14,925 bases of DNA from Oscillospiraceae bacterium (GTDB taxonomy: Bacteria; Bacillota; Clostridia; Saccharofermentanales; Saccharofermentanaceae). The DNA is taken from contig CADBNJ010000161.1 of NCBI GenBank assembly GCA_902795955.1, positions 1-14,925 of the forward strand, in the 5' to 3' direction. A model generated the notes under the pieces. The model saw nothing but the letters and a program-made list of their open reading frames with translations, was not told the origin of the DNA and ran no database searches. Each line of letters opens with the position of its first letter. Position 1 is the stretch's first letter. Of the stretch, positions 2,642-11,724 are shown piece after piece. The position numbers and the translations under genes are program-made.

Positions 2642-2983
2642 TTATACGACGCTTGTCTTGAGTCTGTCGAAAGCAGCCTTGGCCACATTCCTTACATTGG
2701 GATCCGAATCAGCGAAAGCAAGCTTCTTAACATACTCTTCACAGTGCTTTGCATTGATATCGGCAGCGGAAGTTGCAGCAGCAGCTCTGACCATAGGGGA
2801 TGAGTCTCGGAGAAGCGGTATCAGAGCCATGCCGGATTCGTATGTCGAGATCATGCCCATCGCTATTGCTGCTTCTGTCCTTACCATCTCATCACCGTCA
2901 GAAGAGAACTTGATGAGGCCATCAAGCTTCTGCTTCCTGCCTAACTTCTGTATTTTCTCTCTAATTGCATCAATACGAGCCAT
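2642..2983 (-). CDS. Small HEAT-repeat protein
   Basis: A 113-residue soluble, mostly alpha-helical protein. After a basic N-terminal helix it shows three HEAT/PBS-lyase-like units. These have the pattern D-x-x-x-x-VR-x-x-A-x-x-A, seen as GDEMVRTEAAIAMG, SSPMVRAAAATSAA and SDPNVRNVAKAAFD. Such repeats form protein-binding solenoids and do not point to one substrate. The start is the ATG at 2981-2983, because AGGAG lies 7 bases upstream on the minus strand; a TTG start 18 bases further out would overlap that ribosome site. The gene is monocistronic, converges on the cyclase gene through the shared terminator, and is divergent from the GH5 gene. The repeat fold is a confident call; the role is unknown. 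Confidence 0.8.
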   Translation of the reverse strand: MARIDAIREKIQKLGRKQKLDGLIKFSSDGDEMVRTEAAIAMGMISTYESGMALIPLLRDSSPMVRAAAATSAADINAKHCEEYVKKLAFADSDPNVRNVAKAAFDRLKTSVV

Positions 2984-3203
2984 TGAGTTACTCCTAAACA
3001 AAAATTATTATTTTGATTAATTACATTATAAAATTTATACAACAAGAATAATTTTAACAAAAAGTATATAAATTGTGAACACAATGTGGCAAGGTGCACA
3101 ACATGTATTAATTAAAAAATAAAATTCGTGTTATATAAAATTCATAACTTGTTTTATAATATCACTGTAGTTTCAAAATGAATACCAAAATTGAGGTGTC
3201 CTT
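2984..3203. promoter_or_regulatory. AT-rich divergent promoter region
   Basis: These 220 bases separate the minus-strand HEAT gene from the plus-strand GH5 gene and hold no credible open frame. A plus-strand TATAAT at 3155-3160, about 44 bases from the GH5 start, is the best -10 candidate; the -35 candidate TTATAT (3131-3136, spacer 18) is weak. On the minus strand a TATAAT (plus coordinates 3025-3030) lies about 42 bases from the HEAT start and also lacks a good -35. The GH5 ribosome site is GAGGTG at 3193-3198. No riboswitch-like fold was recognised. Confidence 0.5.
3072..3085. promoter_or_regulatory. Palindrome, possible operator
   Basis: ATTGTG-AA-CACAAT is a perfect 6-2-6 inverted repeat lying between the two divergent promoters. 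A partial copy of one arm (GTGCACAAC, 3094-3102) follows. Its position suits a transcription-factor site that governs one or both genes. It matches no consensus I can name with confidence, and chance symmetry is possible. Confidence 0.3.
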
Positions 3204-5566: not shown

Positions 5567-6067
5567 ATGAACGGTAAAGTTCTTATTGTTATGGGTTCTG
5601 ATTCTGATTTTCCCGTAATGGAAGGCTGCTTCAAGATGCTGAAGCAGTTCGGTGTTGATTTTGAGGCCAGAGTTGCATCCGCGCACAGGACGCCTGATAA
5701 GGCGATCAGTCTTGCAAGGACTGCCAAAGACAACGGATTCGGAGTAATCATTGCCGCAGCAGGGCTTGCAGCGCACCTCGGCGGTGTTCTTGCTGCCAAT
5801 ACGATCCTTCCCGTTATAGGCGTTCCATGCAAGGGCGGCGCGCTGAACGGGGTTGATGCTCTTTATGCGACGGTTCAGATGCCTACCGGTATACCTGTTG
5901 CTACTGTCGCCATTGACGGCGGATCTAATGCCGCCATCCTTGCTTGTCAGATATTGGCTTTGGGCAATGAGGAATTGTCTTCTAAGCTTGCTGAATATAA
6001 AAAGTCACTTGAAGCTTCTGTCGAACAAAGAGACGCCAGACTTCAGGCAAAAATCTCAGAACTGTAA
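5567..6067 (+). CDS. purE: PurE, 5-(carboxyamino)imidazole ribonucleotide mutase / AIR carboxylase
   Basis: The 166-residue protein catalyses the carboxylation step that gives CAIR in de novo purine synthesis. The class I pattern is clear: MGSDSD (11-14), ASAHRTP (H40), GLAAHLGG (69-73), LNGVDAL, QMPTGIPVATVAI and NAAILACQILA. Two local differences from common class I PurE are Gly72 where the usual AHLPG has Pro, and CKGG before the LNGVDAL segment. purK is not adjacent, which fits clostridial purine pathways that may rely on unassisted carboxylation. GGAGAG (5556-5561) precedes the ATG. purF starts 9 bases downstream. No promoter or terminator separates it from the CapA-like gene 21 bases upstream. 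Confidence 0.92.
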   Translation: MNGKVLIVMGSDSDFPVMEGCFKMLKQFGVDFEARVASAHRTPDKAISLARTAKDNGFGVIIAAAGLAAHLGGVLAANTILPVIGVPCKGGALNGVDALYATVQMPTGIPVATVAIDGGSNAAILACQILALGNEELSSKLAEYKKSLEASVEQRDARLQAKISEL

Positions 6068-6076
6068 GGTGGTACT

Positions 6077-7459
6077 ATGAGCGGAGTATTTGGATGTTTT
6101 GACAGAACAGGCGCTAAAGACGTTGCCAAGGACATGTATTACGGTGTTTTCTCACTGCAGCACCGCGGCCAGGAAGCGGCAGGAATAGCCGTTAATAATG
6201 ACGGAACATTCCTCGTGCATAAGCAGATGGGCATGGTAACTGATGTTTTCGATGAGATCACATTATCGGCGCTCCCCGGTTATTGCGGTATCGGACATGC
6301 AAGGGGCGGTTCCGATAAGTCAACAGGCAGCGACGGTATTCAGCCTGTCCTCATCAAGTCTCGTGTAGGCAACATAGGTATTACCTGTGATTCCGTCGTT
6401 CTCAATGCCGACATCATCAGGGATGAACTTAAGAATCTCGGTGCGATCTTCCAGTCCGGTACGGATTCAGAGCTTATCCTGTCATTGTTCTCAAGGAACA
6501 GGATATCGACTGATGACTGCGAACATGCGATCCTTAACATGATGAAGGAAATCAAGGGCGTCTACTCAATGATCTTCATGACAGATAACAAGCTCATCGG
6601 CGTCAGAGATCCGTTCGGATTGAGACCTCTTGTGCTCGGAAGGGCAGGTGAGAGGTATTTCCTCTCATCAGAATCATGTGCTCTCGATGCGATCGGGGCA
6701 GAGTTTGTCAGAGATATTGAGCCCGGTGAGATAATCTCTATATCAAATGACGGAATATCTTCGCTCTTCTATGAGGATAAGGCAGACAGAGTAGCTGACG
6801 GACATGTATGTATATTTGAATATGTGTATGTTGCAAGACCCGACAGTACGATAGACGGAACAGAGATCTTCGAGTCGAGATATTCTGCAGGCAGAGCTCT
6901 GGCGAAGGAGCAGCCCTGTGACTGTGATCTTGTCATAGGTGCACCGGACTCAGGTAATGCCGCAGCTTTAGGTTATGCAGATTCCCTCGGTGTTCCTTAC
7001 GGTATGGGCCTTCTTAAGAACCGTTATGTAGGAAGAACATTTATCAAGAGTACTCAGGGACAGAGAGAACTCGCTGTTAGAATGAAGTTCTCGGTACTCA
7101 AGAGTGCAGTTAAGGGTAAGAGGATATGCATCGTCGATGATTCGCTCGTCAGAGGAACAACGACAAAGCATATTATTCATTTCATGCGTGAGAACGGCGC
7201 GAAAGAAGTCCACTTGAGACTTGCTTCTCCTCAGGTCAGATATGCATGCTGCTACGGCGTTAATGCCGATAAGATCGAAGATCTTCCTGCACACACCAAG
7301 ACAGACAAAGAGATCTGTGAGATGATAGGCGCTGATTCGCTCGGCTATATCAGTCTCGAATCTCTGCGTGCTTCTCTTAAGAATATCCATTGCAAGCAGT
7401 GCTCGGCATGCTTTGACGGTGATTTCATTGCAGGTAAACCCGAAGGGTGTGAAGAGTAA
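6077..7459 (+). CDS. purF: PurF-type amidophosphoribosyltransferase with degenerate glutaminase domain
   Basis: This 460-residue PurF homologue aligns over its whole length with Bacillus-type PurF. The phosphoribosyltransferase half looks functional: NRYVGRTFI, the RELAVRMKFS segment and the PRPP loop VDDSLVRGTT. Cysteines at VCIFEY, ACCYG and HCKQCSACF fit the Fe-S cluster seen in Bacillus PurF. The N-terminal glutamine amidotransferase half is altered. The nucleophile Cys of CGVFG is Ser2 (ATG AGC GGA), the GHxRY motif reads GHARG (R76), and the oxyanion-hole HNGN reads CDSV (104-107). TDSE is kept. Glutamine hydrolysis is therefore unlikely, and synthesis of phosphoribosylamine from PRPP may depend on free ammonia or a partner (inference). 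AAGGTGG upstream supports this start, and no propeptide is encoded. It is one base from purN. Confidence 0.88.
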   Translation: MSGVFGCFDRTGAKDVAKDMYYGVFSLQHRGQEAAGIAVNNDGTFLVHKQMGMVTDVFDEITLSALPGYCGIGHARGGSDKSTGSDGIQPVLIKSRVGNIGITCDSVVLNADIIRDELKNLGAIFQSGTDSELILSLFSRNRISTDDCEHAILNMMKEIKGVYSMIFMTDNKLIGVRDPFGLRPLVLGRAGERYFLSSESCALDAIGAEFVRDIEPGEIISISNDGISSLFYEDKADRVADGHVCIFEYVYVARPDSTIDGTEIFESRYSAGRALAKEQPCDCDLVIGAPDSGNAAALGYADSLGVPYGMGLLKNRYVGRTFIKSTQGQRELAVRMKFSVLKSAVKGKRICIVDDSLVRGTTTKHIIHFMRENGAKEVHLRLASPQVRYACCYGVNADKIEDLPAHTKTDKEICEMIGADSLGYISLESLRASLKNIHCKQCSACFDGDFIAGKPEGCEE

Positions 7460-7460
7460 C

Positions 7461-8087
7461 ATGAAGATCGCAGTTTTCGTATCCGGCGGAGGAACTAACC
7501 TTCAGGCAATCATAGACAACATCAAGAGCGGTTATCTAGAAGGTGTTGAGATATGTCTTGTAGTTGCATCCAACAGCAGCGCTTATGCTCTTACCAGAGC
7601 ATCAGACAACGGGATCCCTTCCTGTGTTCTTTCTGTTAAGGATTTTGCTGACAGGGATTCCTGGGATCAGGCAGTGCTTGACAAGGTAGAGGCGTCAGGA
7701 GCTGAGCTGATCGTCCTTGCAGGATATCTGTCACTTCTCGGGGATAAGGTGGTCAAGGCTTATTCCAACAGGATAATTAATATTCACCCCGCACTTATTC
7801 CTTCTTTCTGCGGTGCTGGCATGTACGGCATCAAGCCGCACAAAGCAGTTCTTGCAAGAGGAGTCAAAGTATCGGGGGCTACGGTTCATTTTGTTAATGA
7901 GAATTATGATGACGGACCGATCATACTTCAGAAGGCGGTCGATGTGCTTCCGGGTGATACGCCCGAGATACTTCAGAAGCGCATCATGAGAGAATGTGAA
8001 CAAGTGATACTTCCCAGGGCAATAAGGCTTATTGCTGACGGTAAGGTCGCGATCGAGAATAATATTGCATATGTTAAGGAGGATTAA
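7461..8087 (+). CDS. purN: PurN, phosphoribosylglycinamide formyltransferase
   Basis: A 208-residue folate-dependent GAR transformylase, the third step of purine synthesis, using 10-formyltetrahydrofolate. Visible motifs are the phosphate-binding GGGTNLQAI near the N-terminus, catalytic INIHPALIPSF (N107, H109), SGATVHFV, and YDDGPII (D150), which match the Asn-His-Asp triad of E. coli PurN. The start is the ATG at 7461, one base after the purF stop, with AAGGGTG and GAAGAG just inside the end of purF serving translation. A longer in-frame open stretch runs into purF but lacks PurN-like sequence. The purO-like gene follows after 3 bases. Confidence 0.93.
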   Translation: MKIAVFVSGGGTNLQAIIDNIKSGYLEGVEICLVVASNSSAYALTRASDNGIPSCVLSVKDFADRDSWDQAVLDKVEASGAELIVLAGYLSLLGDKVVKAYSNRIINIHPALIPSFCGAGMYGIKPHKAVLARGVKVSGATVHFVNENYDDGPIILQKAVDVLPGDTPEILQKRIMRECEQVILPRAIRLIADGKVAIENNIAYVKED

Positions 8088-8090
8088 GAG

Positions 8091-8804
8091 ATGAGACTTA
8101 ATGATCTAGGACAGTTGCTGGGAAGTACTTCATATCCCGGAAGAGGTATCGTCATCGGTACTTCTGATGACGGTAAATATGCCGTCACGGCATATTTTAT
8201 TATGGGGCGCAGCGTTAATTCGCGCAACCGCGTATTTACTGCCACGGATGACGGTATCAAGACAGAGGCTTTCGATCCTTCCAAATTATCTGATCCCCAC
8301 CTCATTATTTACAGTCCTGTAAGGGTTCTCGGTAATGACACGATCGTTACTAACGGTGATCAGACAGATACTATTTTTGAGCTTATGAGTGCCGGCAAGA
8401 CTTTCGAAGAGGCGCTGAGAACACGTGAGTTTGAGGATGATGCACCTAACTATACGCCCAGGATATCTGGAATCATGCATGTTAAGAACGGTAAGTTCAG
8501 TTATGAGCTGAGTATCCTTAAGTCTTCAGACGGTAATCCTGATTCATGTGAGAGATTTACTTATCAGTATTTCCAGCCTGTAAAAGGCGAGGGAAGGTTT
8601 ATCCATACATATATGGGAGATGGCAATCCTCTGCCCAGCTTCACGGGCGAGCCTGAGAAGGTCGTAATCGAAGGTAATATCGATTCATTCACAAAGACTG
8701 TCTGGGATAATCTTAACGAAGACAACAAAGTATCCCTGTTTGTCAGGTTTATCGATATTGCAACCGGCGAGGCTGACACAAGAATAATCAATAAAAATGT
8801 TTAA
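8091..8804 (+). CDS. purO: PurO-type IMP cyclohydrolase
   Basis: A 237-residue protein matching the IMP cyclohydrolase family first known from archaeal PurO, in its bacterial form. It closes FAICAR to IMP, the last step of the pathway. Recognised segments are YPGRGIVIG, an SRNRVF motif, VTNGDQTDTI, YTPRISGI, and DGNPLPSFTGEP near residue 185. It is unrelated to the MGS-like cyclohydrolase half of PurH. The reaction is inferred from family and context: it lies directly before a stand-alone AICAR transformylase, so the pair together replaces bifunctional PurH. GGAGG at the very end of purN is its ribosome site. Confidence 0.85.
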   Translation: MRLNDLGQLLGSTSYPGRGIVIGTSDDGKYAVTAYFIMGRSVNSRNRVFTATDDGIKTEAFDPSKLSDPHLIIYSPVRVLGNDTIVTNGDQTDTIFELMSAGKTFEEALRTREFEDDAPNYTPRISGIMHVKNGKFSYELSILKSSDGNPDSCERFTYQYFQPVKGEGRFIHTYMGDGNPLPSFTGEPEKVVIEGNIDSFTKTVWDNLNEDNKVSLFVRFIDIATGEADTRIINKNV

Positions 8805-8822
8805 TACAGGAGTGTGATCACT

Positions 8823-10004
8823 ATGGCAAACGAGATGCAGCTTAAGTACGGATGTAATCCAAATCAGAAACCTTCAAGAATCTTCATGGAAGACGGTTCG
8901 GAGCTTCCTATCACCGTTCTGAACGGTAAGCCGGGATATATCAATCTTCTTGATGCTTTTAACGGTTATCAGCTTGTAAAGGAACTTAAAGCTGCAACCG
9001 GTATGCCTTCAGCAACTTCATTCAAGCATGTATCTCCTGCCGGAGCTGCAGTAGGAAGACCGCTTACTGATACGGAAGCAAAGATATATTTTGTTGACGA
9101 TCTTGGTGAATTGTCTCCGATTGCCTGTGCATATGCAAGAGCCAGAGGCGCTGACAGAATGTCTTCTTACGGTGATTTTGTCGCTTTATCCGATACATGT
9201 GATGCTATTACGGCAACAATGCTTGCAAGAGAAGTATCTGACGGAATCATTGCTCCCGACTATACAGATGATGCTCTTGAGATCCTGAAGACAAAGCGCA
9301 AGGGAACTTATAATGTGATCAAGATCGATCCTTCATACAAGCCTGAGCCCATTGAGCGCAAGCAGGTATATGGGGTTACTTTCGAGCAGGGAAGAAATGA
9401 ACTTGATATCAATGCTTCTCTCCTTGATAACATTGTAACTGATAACAAAGATATTCCCGAAGATAAGAAGATCGATCTGCTCATCTCTCTTATCACATTG
9501 AAGTACACGCAGTCCAATTCCGTCTGCTATGTTAAGGACGGTCAGGCAATCGGTATCGGTGCCGGTCAGCAGTCCAGGATCCACTGCACGAGGCTGGCAG
9601 GCAACAAGGCAGACATCTGGTGGCTCAGGCAGCATCCTAAGGTCATGGGACTTCAGTTCGTAGATGATATCAGGAGACCCGACAGGGATAATACGATCGA
9701 TGTTTATATCTCTGACGAGCATGACGATGTGCTGGCTGACGGAGTATGGCAGAATCTGTTTAAGGTTAAGCCTGAAGTTCTGACTGATGCAGAGAAGAAA
9801 GAGTGGCTTGCCAAGAATACAGATGTATCAGTCGGTTCCGATGCTTTCTTCCCGTTCGGTGACAACATAGAGAGAGCACATAAGAGCGGTGTTAAGTACA
9901 TTGCAGAGCCCGGCGGTTCAATAAGAGATGACCATGTCATCATGACATGCAACAAGTACGGTATCGCAATGGCGTTCACAGGTATCAGGCTGTTCCATCA
10001 TTAA
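8823..10004 (+). CDS. purH: Stand-alone AICAR transformylase (PurH C-terminal-type domain)
   Basis: A 393-residue enzyme formylating AICAR to FAICAR with 10-formyltetrahydrofolate. It starts within the transformylase domain and has no MGS-like cyclohydrolase domain. Catalytic Lys-His is in FKHVSPAG (K68, H69). Other landmarks are SYGDFVALSD, GAGQQSRIHCTRLAG, DAFFPFGDN (342-347), a GGSIRDD loop and the terminal RLFHH ending typical of ATIC-type proteins. I chose ATG 8823 because AGGAG (8808-8812) is 10 bases upstream; a GTG at 8814 would overlap the ribosome site. It works with the preceding PurO-type enzyme. The symbol purH is used for the transformylase activity only. Confidence 0.9.
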   Translation: MANEMQLKYGCNPNQKPSRIFMEDGSELPITVLNGKPGYINLLDAFNGYQLVKELKAATGMPSATSFKHVSPAGAAVGRPLTDTEAKIYFVDDLGELSPIACAYARARGADRMSSYGDFVALSDTCDAITATMLAREVSDGIIAPDYTDDALEILKTKRKGTYNVIKIDPSYKPEPIERKQVYGVTFEQGRNELDINASLLDNIVTDNKDIPEDKKIDLLISLITLKYTQSNSVCYVKDGQAIGIGAGQQSRIHCTRLAGNKADIWWLRQHPKVMGLQFVDDIRRPDRDNTIDVYISDEHDDVLADGVWQNLFKVKPEVLTDAEKKEWLAKNTDVSVGSDAFFPFGDNIERAHKSGVKYIAEPGGSIRDDHVIMTCNKYGIAMAFTGIRLFHH

Positions 10005-10470: not shown

Positions 10471-11724
10471 ATGAAGGTTTTAGTAGTAGGAAGCGGCGGT
10501 AGAGAACACGTTATATGCTGGAAGCTCAAGCAGACCGGCAAAGTTGATGAGTTGTACTGTGCTCCGGGTAACGGAGGCATAGCTTCTGTTGCAACCTGCG
10601 TGGATATCAAAGCATCAGAGGTCGATAAGATAACTGATTATGCTGTCGATAATAAGTTCGATCTTGTTGTCGTAGCTCCCGAGGATCCTCTTGCTCTGGG
10701 TCTCGTTGACAAGCTCAACGCCAAAGGGATCAGAGCTTTCGGGCCATCTGCGAGAGCTGCTGTTATCGAGGCTTCCAAGGCTTTCTCCAAGAACCTTATG
10801 AAGAAATACGGAATTCCTACTGCCAGGTATGAATTGTTTGACGATGAGGCAAAGGCGTGTGCGTATCTCGAGACGCAGGAAATGCCTATCGTATTGAAAT
10901 GTGACGGACTTGCTCTCGGTAAGGGCGTTATCATTGCTCAGACTCTTGATGAGGCTAAGACTGCCGTCCATCAGATGATGGGTGATAAGAAGTTCGGAGA
11001 TGCCGGTTCCACCGTTGTCATAGAAGAATGCATGGTCGGTCCTGAACTTACGATCCTCGCTTTCTCGGACGGCAACATCGCCGTACCGATGATATCCTCA
11101 AGAGACCATAAGCGCGCTTATGATCACGATGAGGGACTCAATACGGGAGGTATGGGTGCAGTAACGCCGGGTGCCGATCTGTCCGGTAATGATATTGCCG
11201 AGATAAAGAGAACTATAATCCAGCCTACTGTTGAAGCATTGAAGGCTGAAGGAAGGCCGTTCAAGGGAGTCATATATTTCGGTCTTATGCTTACAAAGGA
11301 CGGTGCAAAGGTTGTTGAGTACAACTGCAGATTCGGCGATCCCGAAGTTCAGGCAATACTGCCGCTCCTTGAGACTGATTTCATCGATATCATCAATGCC
11401 ACTATTGACGGAACACTTGATCAGATCGACATTAAGTGGAAGAAGAAGTGCTCATGCGTTGTCGTAATGGCCTCGGGCGGTTATCCCGAGAGTTATGCCA
11501 AGGGTTATGAGATCACGGGCATAGATACTTGCGGCAAGCTTGTTTTCCAGGCCGGAACTGCGCTTAAGGATGGTAAGCTTGTGACAAACGGCGGCCGTGT
11601 TCTCTGCGTTTATGATGAAGGTGATACACTTGATGAAGCGATCGACGGTGCCTATGAGGGTGTTAAGAAGATATCTTTCAAGGATATGCATTTCCGTACG
11701 GATATAGGAAGGACTCTGGGCTGA
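10471..11724 (+). CDS. purD: PurD, phosphoribosylamine-glycine ligase
   Basis: The 417-residue ATP-grasp enzyme joins glycine to phosphoribosylamine, the unstable product of PurF. Landmarks in order are GSGGREHV at the N-terminus, APGNGG, APEDPLALGLVD, LKCDGLALGKGV (ATP-grasp lysine region), SSRDHKRAYD, NTGGMGAVTP and EYNCRFGDPE (metal and ATP ligands), then the C-terminal domain. Length is normal for the family. AUG is preceded by CGGAGGA. The nadD-yqeK fusion starts one base after its stop, so the two are probably translationally coupled. Confidence 0.95.
   Translation: MKVLVVGSGGREHVICWKLKQTGKVDELYCAPGNGGIASVATCVDIKASEVDKITDYAVDNKFDLVVVAPEDPLALGLVDKLNAKGIRAFGPSARAAVIEASKAFSKNLMKKYGIPTARYELFDDEAKACAYLETQEMPIVLKCDGLALGKGVIIAQTLDEAKTAVHQMMGDKKFGDAGSTVVIEECMVGPELTILAFSDGNIAVPMISSRDHKRAYDHDEGLNTGGMGAVTPGADLSGNDIAEIKRTIIQPTVEALKAEGRPFKGVIYFGLMLTKDGAKVVEYNCRFGDPEVQAILPLLETDFIDIINATIDGTLDQIDIKWKKKCSCVVVMASGGYPESYAKGYEITGIDTCGKLVFQAGTALKDGKLVTNGGRVLCVYDEGDTLDEAIDGAYEGVKKISFKDMHFRTDIGRTLG

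Follow-up and report, generated by a model that had tools for sequence, protein, structure and literature searches.

A genus-wide, operon-encoded PurF with a dismantled glutaminase site in Saccharofermentanaceae: a candidate bacterial PurF'

PurF makes ammonia in its Ntn domain, from which a channel of ~20 angstroms leads it to the site where PRPP is bound (PMC7056826). Replacing Cys1 of the E. coli enzyme with Ala or Ser abolishes glutamine activity while ammonia use is kept (PMC3261824, citing Mei and Zalkin 1989). A second, Cys-less PurF is known from Crenarchaeota under the name PurF'; it was put forward, for experimental testing, as a PRPP aminotransferase that depends on ammonia (Brown et al. 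2011, PMC3261824). As described there, Ala or Val often stands in for the Cys of archaeal PurF', and both genes lie near purine genes. The same source describes Mlab_0150 of Methanocorpusculum labreanum, a PurF duplicate with Ser for Cys that is suspected not to be a glutamine amidotransferase. This was the only paper on Cys-less PurF found in the open-licence literature, where our search returned no report of the bacterial Cys-less clade described below. Cys-less PurF as a kind and the idea of its ammonia function are already known; added here are a bacterial clade, its stepwise history, its operon place, and a probable case without a canonical partner.

The window, the whole stretch of 14,925 nucleotides that was analyzed, belongs, as contig 161, to a metagenome-assembled genome of 1.86 Mb in 349 contigs that is 68.85% complete. 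Like archaeal PurF' as described in PMC3261824, window-type PurF lacks the N-terminal Cys, usually shares its genome with a canonical PurF, and is linked to purine genes. Unlike archaeal PurF', it is found in Bacillota, starts with Met-Ser-Gly, has lost the oxyanion hole as well, and is the only one of the two copies to lie in the operon. Mlab_0150, set beside the window protein by its description in PMC3261824, differs in being a recent duplicate in one species. Relatives of the window protein in public databases carry names including Saccharofermentans, Mageeibacillus, and Clostridiales/Ruminococcaceae; several of them came from the duodenum of sheep, the rumen of buffalo and yak, and the omasum of yak.

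The operon has the order purE - purF - purN - IMP cyclohydrolase - AICAR formyltransferase - DUF948-like - purD - nadD/yqeK. Its PurF matched the TIGR01134 purF model over the full length with 433.6 bits, passing the curated cut-off of 350. The features of the operon were as follows:

5567..6067, forward strand: purE, adjoining purF' upstream (TIGR01162)
6077..7459, forward strand: purF', a class A PurF with a predicted dead glutaminase, 460 aa plus stop (ORF; TIGR01134; GATase_7, GATase_6, Pribosyltran)
7461..8087, forward strand: purN, adjoining purF' downstream (TIGR00639)
8091..8804, forward strand: IMP cyclohydrolase, PurO-like (PF07826; under the cut-off of the archaeal models NF003167 and TIGR01922)
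8814..10004, forward strand: AICAR formyltransferase, stand-alone (NF005492/PRK07106)
10471..11724, forward strand: purD, the user of phosphoribosylamine (TIGR00877)

Ahead of the operon, on the opposite strand (window 2642-3001), lies a gene whose 119-aa product looks repeat-like and, by eye, resembles HEAT repeats; many loci of the genus and its sisters have a similar ORF of ~113 aa at this side of the operon.

The N-terminus of the window PurF reads MSGVFGCFDR. Codon 2 is AGC, which places Ser where PurF enzymes carry the nucleophile Cys, as a sequence-only reading of this DNA had claimed. No upstream start would add a Cys: the in-frame stop at 6065-6067, the end of purE, is followed by GGT GGT ACT, none of which is a start codon. 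The protein was aligned with B. subtilis PurF (1ao0 and 1gph) using phmmer over query residues 3-450. Asp105-Ser106 aligned with the Asn-Gly of HNGN, and Gly77 with the Tyr of GHVRY. The other two replacements named in that reading, HNGN by Cys-Asp-Ser-Val at residues 104-107 and GHxRY by GHARG, were thereby borne out, as was its statement that the rest of the protein is collinear with the Bacillus enzyme, which holds for residues 3-450. Relative to B. subtilis PurF, the window protein lacks the propeptide, Cys1, the Asn-Gly, and the Tyr of GHxRY. Residues were interpreted according to their roles in E. coli PurF. The features of this half were as follows:

6080..6751, forward strand: former glutaminase (Ntn) domain, residues 2-225, boundaries approximate (Pfam GATase matches; AlphaFold2 Ntn fold, pLDDT mostly >80)
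6080..6082, forward strand: Ser2 (AGC) at the canonical nucleophile-Cys place (Ser in 76/76 genus and Cys in 21/21 sister orthologues)
6293..6307, forward strand: GHARG for GHxRY, Tyr lost, residues 73-77 (sequence, phmmer alignment, genus rows)
6386..6397, forward strand: CDSV for HNGN, oxyanion-hole Asn-Gly lost, residues 104-107 (sequence, phmmer alignment, genus rows)

A search of 85 genomes of the genus yielded two kinds of PurF, class A, which includes the window protein, and class B, the canonical PurF. Among the matches listed, identity to the window protein was 63-98% for class A and 41-47% for class B. Class A was present in 77/85 genomes, the 8 absences comparing with 9.4 expected from incompleteness. 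The genus class A set comprised 76 complete rows from 75 genomes, with two rows from G049 and the partial genes of G032 and G071 left out. The other rows were 21 class A sequences from sister genera, 45 class B sequences (36 genus, 9 sister), and 18 sequences from other families of the order. Two further class A genes were excluded from the counts, one being in two pieces in different frames (G111:C102, L144) and the other cut by a contig end (G094:C26, L145).

The residue before GxxG was Ser in 76/76 genus class A rows and Cys in all 21 sister class A and all 45 class B rows (43 of the latter read from the alignment, G039 and G038 directly as MHEEC). Similarly, the oxyanion-hole Gly was kept in none of the 76 genus class A rows, in 21/21 sister class A rows, and in 45/45 class B rows. 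Within genus class A (n = 76), position 105 was Asp in 73 rows, Asn in 2, and Cys in 1; position 106 was Ser in 70, Thr in 3, Cys in 2, and Ala in 1, with no Gly; and position 77 was Gly in 73, Leu in 2, and Thr in 1, with no Tyr. Sister class A sequences had partly drifted already, retaining the Tyr of GHxRY in 2/21 and the His of HNGN in 2/21. In the protein database, an MSGxxG start was found in 116 of the best 120 matches; two of the remainder were truncated and two had EEC/G. The loss of the glutaminase site is a genus-wide trait.

Sequencing error or a pseudogene was ruled out by the 76 complete rows that share this state and by low dN/dS; the sequence-only reading had argued against sequencing error from several independent changes. 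Of the stops that had been flagged, the two TAA in G083 fall away, as the homologous stretch is open over 459 aa, as does the one TAA in G032, where 351 aa of the partial gene read open. One candidate intermediate, P0120, with a Met-Ser start and an intact Asn-Gly, reflected an alignment shift: its MSGKWQEEC/GVFG start is that of a Cys-bearing sister protein. In P0089, a metagenome contig of 1808 bases, a canonical HEEC/GVFGIWSS start is followed by the class A motifs HARGG and SCDTS; this is a recombinant or chimeric assembly, not an intermediate.

The history of the trait was investigated using a FastTree phylogeny of 160 rows, in which the trait columns were included in the alignment and the short rows G071, G032, G111, and G094 were dropped. 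A branch with an SH-like support of 100 set the Ser rows apart from all others, so that Ser2 and the replaced HNGN motif, for which conservation as a clade had been the proposed check, do mark a clade of their own, with 0/76 rows carrying Gly at 106. This clade is nested among Cys-bearing class A sequences of sister genera, beside genus g5. The purE-purF-purN slot was found in 16/16 genus loci with both flanks and in 13/13 sister loci, and the class A copies of the two groups are orthologous on the strength of this shared slot. Moreover, genomes with two PurF copies occur in other families of the order, indicating that the A/B pair predates the glutaminase loss. Alignment and tree show that the operon copy lost its propeptide, nucleophile, and oxyanion hole once in the genus lineage. 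Because this clade arises from within clostridial PurFs that bear the Cys, we infer an origin separate from that of archaeal PurF', the archaeal proteins being compared by description only.

The sister proteins also suggest how the nucleophile was lost. Sister class A proteins start with MSRKWQEEC/GVFG and similar sequences, with Met-Ser in 18/21, then a short stretch, then Cys; a deletion of 6-8 codons between MS and GVFG of such a start gives MSGVFG. A short in-frame deletion that removed propeptide and nucleophile Cys jointly would account for the sequences better than a Cys-to-Ser substitution. Since Met-Ser starts 18/21 sister proteins, Ser2 is probably a remnant of the old start and no swapped nucleophile. 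These data bear on the reading in which Ser2, exposed by Met removal, acts as an alternative Ntn nucleophile and glutamine or another amide is still hydrolyzed. Ser is invariant (76/76) and serves as nucleophile in other Ntn hydrolases, and the places of Arg76 (Arg or Lys) and Asp130 (Asp or Glu) are held in 76/76 genus rows. However, the oxyanion-hole Asn-Gly is gone (Gly106 in 0/76, Asn105 in 2/76), the Met-Ser start of the sisters explains the Ser without selection, and the Cys-to-Ser change kills glutamine use in E. coli PurF (PMC3261824). We consider such an activity very unlikely.

A second operon character was observed in the same loci. The PurO-like IMP cyclohydrolase and the stand-alone AICAR formyltransferase were both present in 16/16 genus loci with both flanks. 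In the sister loci, a purO match was found in 0/13; five of the 13 and some other loci contain instead a frame of ~514 aa, the size of fused PurH. Together with the purF change, two operon changes divide the same two groups.

Selection on the two halves was compared within each class. Genus class A (619 pairs) gave a dN/dS of 0.075 on the former glutaminase side and 0.059 on the transferase side, each slightly above the corresponding value for sister class A (0.048 and 0.036; 97 pairs). The class B values were 0.046 and 0.050, based on only 7 pairs. For protein distances, the half-to-half ratio spanned 1.28-1.69 (genus class A), 0.97-1.55 (sister class A), and 1.20-1.56 (genus class B). By both measures, the dead half is only a little less constrained than its counterpart in working enzymes. 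Purifying selection acts on both domains, and the gene is not decaying. That the glutaminase half is nearly as constrained as the transferase half may mean that it keeps some function for which a simple NH3 enzyme would have no use.

It had been suggested beforehand that a second canonical purF in the genome would mark the operon copy as a decaying paralogue. Decay without present use would fit the loss of one catalytic site and the second, functional-looking PurF of most genomes. It fits poorly with the occurrence of class A in 77/85 genomes, its absences being no more than incompleteness predicts, with complete rows that are all open, with low dN/dS, and with an invariant synthase site. For an old clade that is held by purifying selection, the suggestion was not borne out; we regard decay as highly improbable.

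The synthase half presented a different picture, its features being as follows:

6809..6811, forward strand: Cys245, aligned to a B. subtilis PurF cluster cysteine (phmmer; 76/76)
7016..7042, forward strand: KNRYVGRTF, flexible PRT loop, residues 314-322 (75 or 76/76 per residue)
7133..7162, forward strand: VDDSLVRGTT, PRPP loop, residues 353-362 (each of ten residues 76/76)
7247..7249, forward strand: Cys391, aligned to a B. subtilis PurF cluster cysteine (phmmer; 76/76)
7400..7411, forward strand: Cys442 and Cys445, aligned to B. subtilis PurF cluster cysteines (each 75/76, the remaining row being a gap)

The PRPP loop is kept residue for residue in all 76 rows, and Cys245, 391, 442, and 445 align with B. 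subtilis cysteines that we take to be cluster ligands, both as anticipated. The AlphaFold2 model had a mean pLDDT of 87, falling below 50 only at residues 311-325, the flexible loop. In a fold search with this model, the best PDB match was B. subtilis PurF (1ao0; TM 0.88, 39% identity), to which the window protein is also alike in its collinearity over residues 3-450, its cluster cysteines, and its PRPP loop. The central claim of the sequence-only reading, a dismantled glutaminase site beside an intact synthase site, holds at the level of sequence across the genus rows (n = 76).

Based on the untouched transferase site, the operon address, the E. coli Cys1 mutants, and genome G023 described below, the simplest function is NH3-dependent synthesis. 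We propose that the product of the window gene is a bacterial PurF' that makes phosphoribosylamine from ammonia (probability roughly 0.6). In the proposed mechanism, Met would be removed and the former glutaminase domain would fold without hydrolyzing glutamine, the dead Ntn domain staying as a scaffold and regulatory cover. Free NH3 would reach the PRPP site and yield phosphoribosylamine for the PurD of the same operon, and the canonical PurF, encoded elsewhere, would serve under ammonia scarcity. Ammonia is plentiful in rumen and gut, and the origin of several public relatives from such sites favors the proposal. Its use as the substrate is suggested by these features and is strengthened by the apparent loss of the canonical copy in G023. 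Counting against this explanation, most carriers have a canonical PurF, so the cell need not depend on the class A copy. The constraint on the dead half, and a dN/dS that in both halves lies a little above that of sister class A, also weigh against it.

A freed site might also have allowed a changed job, either PRPP amination using a separate glutaminase or another amino donor, or synthesis of a different phosphoribosyl compound. Pairs of a separate glutaminase and a synthase are common among other amidotransferases. However, no glutaminase or amidase gene was found within the window's purine operon among its ORFs and family matches, the PRPP and flexible loops are unchanged, and the place in the purine operon, common to the Cys-bearing sister orthologues, speaks for the same product. 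A changed job therefore seems quite improbable.

The canonical copy was investigated across the genus. A class B gene accompanies class A in 69/77 carriers, including the nearest relative, G003; G062 has a fragment only. The Cys was present in all 36 genus class B sequences read. The operon PurF is thus usually one of two and not the only source of phosphoribosylamine. The second canonical purF that had been sought in the same genome exists for the genus; in the window's own assembly (69% complete) it was not found. None of 18 class B loci had operon genes beside the canonical copy. The usual place, in the order read in 14 loci, is between a divergent gene, cl8, and transglutaminase-core genes; other neighbors were a racemase, an AMP-binding enzyme, or lysA/glmS/dapL. 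Nothing about these neighbors points to purine metabolism, and a gene for a mixed partner beside the canonical copy was rejected as a candidate. The cl8 product is a conserved protein of ~300 aa starting with CTLCPRxC, to which no Pfam or NCBIfam model matched under the thresholds applied; its gene is divergent from canonical purF, adjoins tandem transglutaminase-core genes, and was located at L086 4890-5843, at L088 7473-8363, and at the junctions L183, L186, L187, and L188.

Coexistence of the two copies raises the main rival to an NH3-dependent synthase, namely that the class A protein is a pseudo-subunit that forms mixed tetramers with canonical PurF as a regulatory or ammonia-receiving partner, the dead site being a binding or scaffold module. 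In favor are the 69/77 carriers with both copies, the constraint on the dead domain (dN/dS 0.075) with its conserved replacements (Asp105 73/76, Ser106 70/76), and the tetrameric state of PurFs, described for the plant enzyme (PMC7056826). Against this, the two genes share no locus in the 18 canonical-copy loci, a mere regulator would not need a fully conserved transferase site, and G023 seems to be without the canonical copy while its class A gene is full length. We judge a pseudo-subunit role unlikely.

Canonical PurF was not found in eight class A carriers: G000, G019, G021, G023, G042, G044, G065, and G079. These absences offer no proof of loss, as 8/77 compares with 7.8 expected from incompleteness (at ≥90% completeness, 3/47 versus 2.0); only the junction in G023 argues for true loss. 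In the G023 assembly (94% complete, 40 contigs), cl8 and the transglutaminase gene directly adjoin, as they do in G079, G044, and G000, and tblastn at E of 1 or less detected no purF remnant at the junction. The purF model found only the full-length class A gene and a GlmS-sized frame in this genome. The G023 purD scored above the cut-off, and the operon purE, purN, purO, and AICAR formyltransferase genes were present; PurM gave weak matches below the cut-off, as it did in G006 and G060. G003, G051, and G040 have an equally empty junction, yet they carry canonical purF elsewhere. The canonical purF has probably been lost in G023, which probably, though this is not proven, relies on the dead-glutaminase PurF alone.

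The other absences were less telling. In G000, the lysA-purF-glmS-dapL block that its nearest relative, G003, carries is missing in full from the assembly, and the absence is no proof of loss. Similarly, G019, G021, and G065 lack the usual transglutaminase neighbors and lie apart on the tree within a tight group, making an assembly gap as likely. G079 and G044 are 69% and 64% complete, and purD was not found in G044. We suggest only tentatively that in some species (G023, perhaps G079 and G044) the dead-glutaminase PurF, having taken over the operon slot, may be the only phosphoribosylamine synthase, with the first committed step of the purine pathway glutamine-free and fed by environmental ammonia, and with the sister genera keeping the earlier steps.

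The bacterial case brings close Cys-bearing orthologues, an operon address, and dozens of naturally occurring variants. At least one genome may rely on a dead-glutaminase PurF alone. Together, these make the ammonia question directly testable. It also indicates that an annotation as a "glutamine" amidotransferase, even with a high score to a curated model, can be mistaken across an entire genus whose members are abundant in the rumen.

Finally, a distant PurF-like family with MGG or LSG starts (L133-L136; P0163-P0282) resembles the window protein in lacking the Cys and is annotated as amidophosphoribosyltransferase; among the best 120 matches listed, the Cys place was Gly in 99 and Ser in 21. 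It differs in being 27-31% identical to the window protein and in scoring 192-194 bits against TIGR01134, under the cut-off of 350. No purine operon was found around its genes in the four loci read. The genomes holding these loci (G041, G043, G085, and G086) were without class A. The family has the motif MGGxFGV..HSHLGTRRGG, and its sources, in Clostridia and others, include Desulfoscipio, Pelotomaculum, Dehalobacter, and Syntrophomonas.
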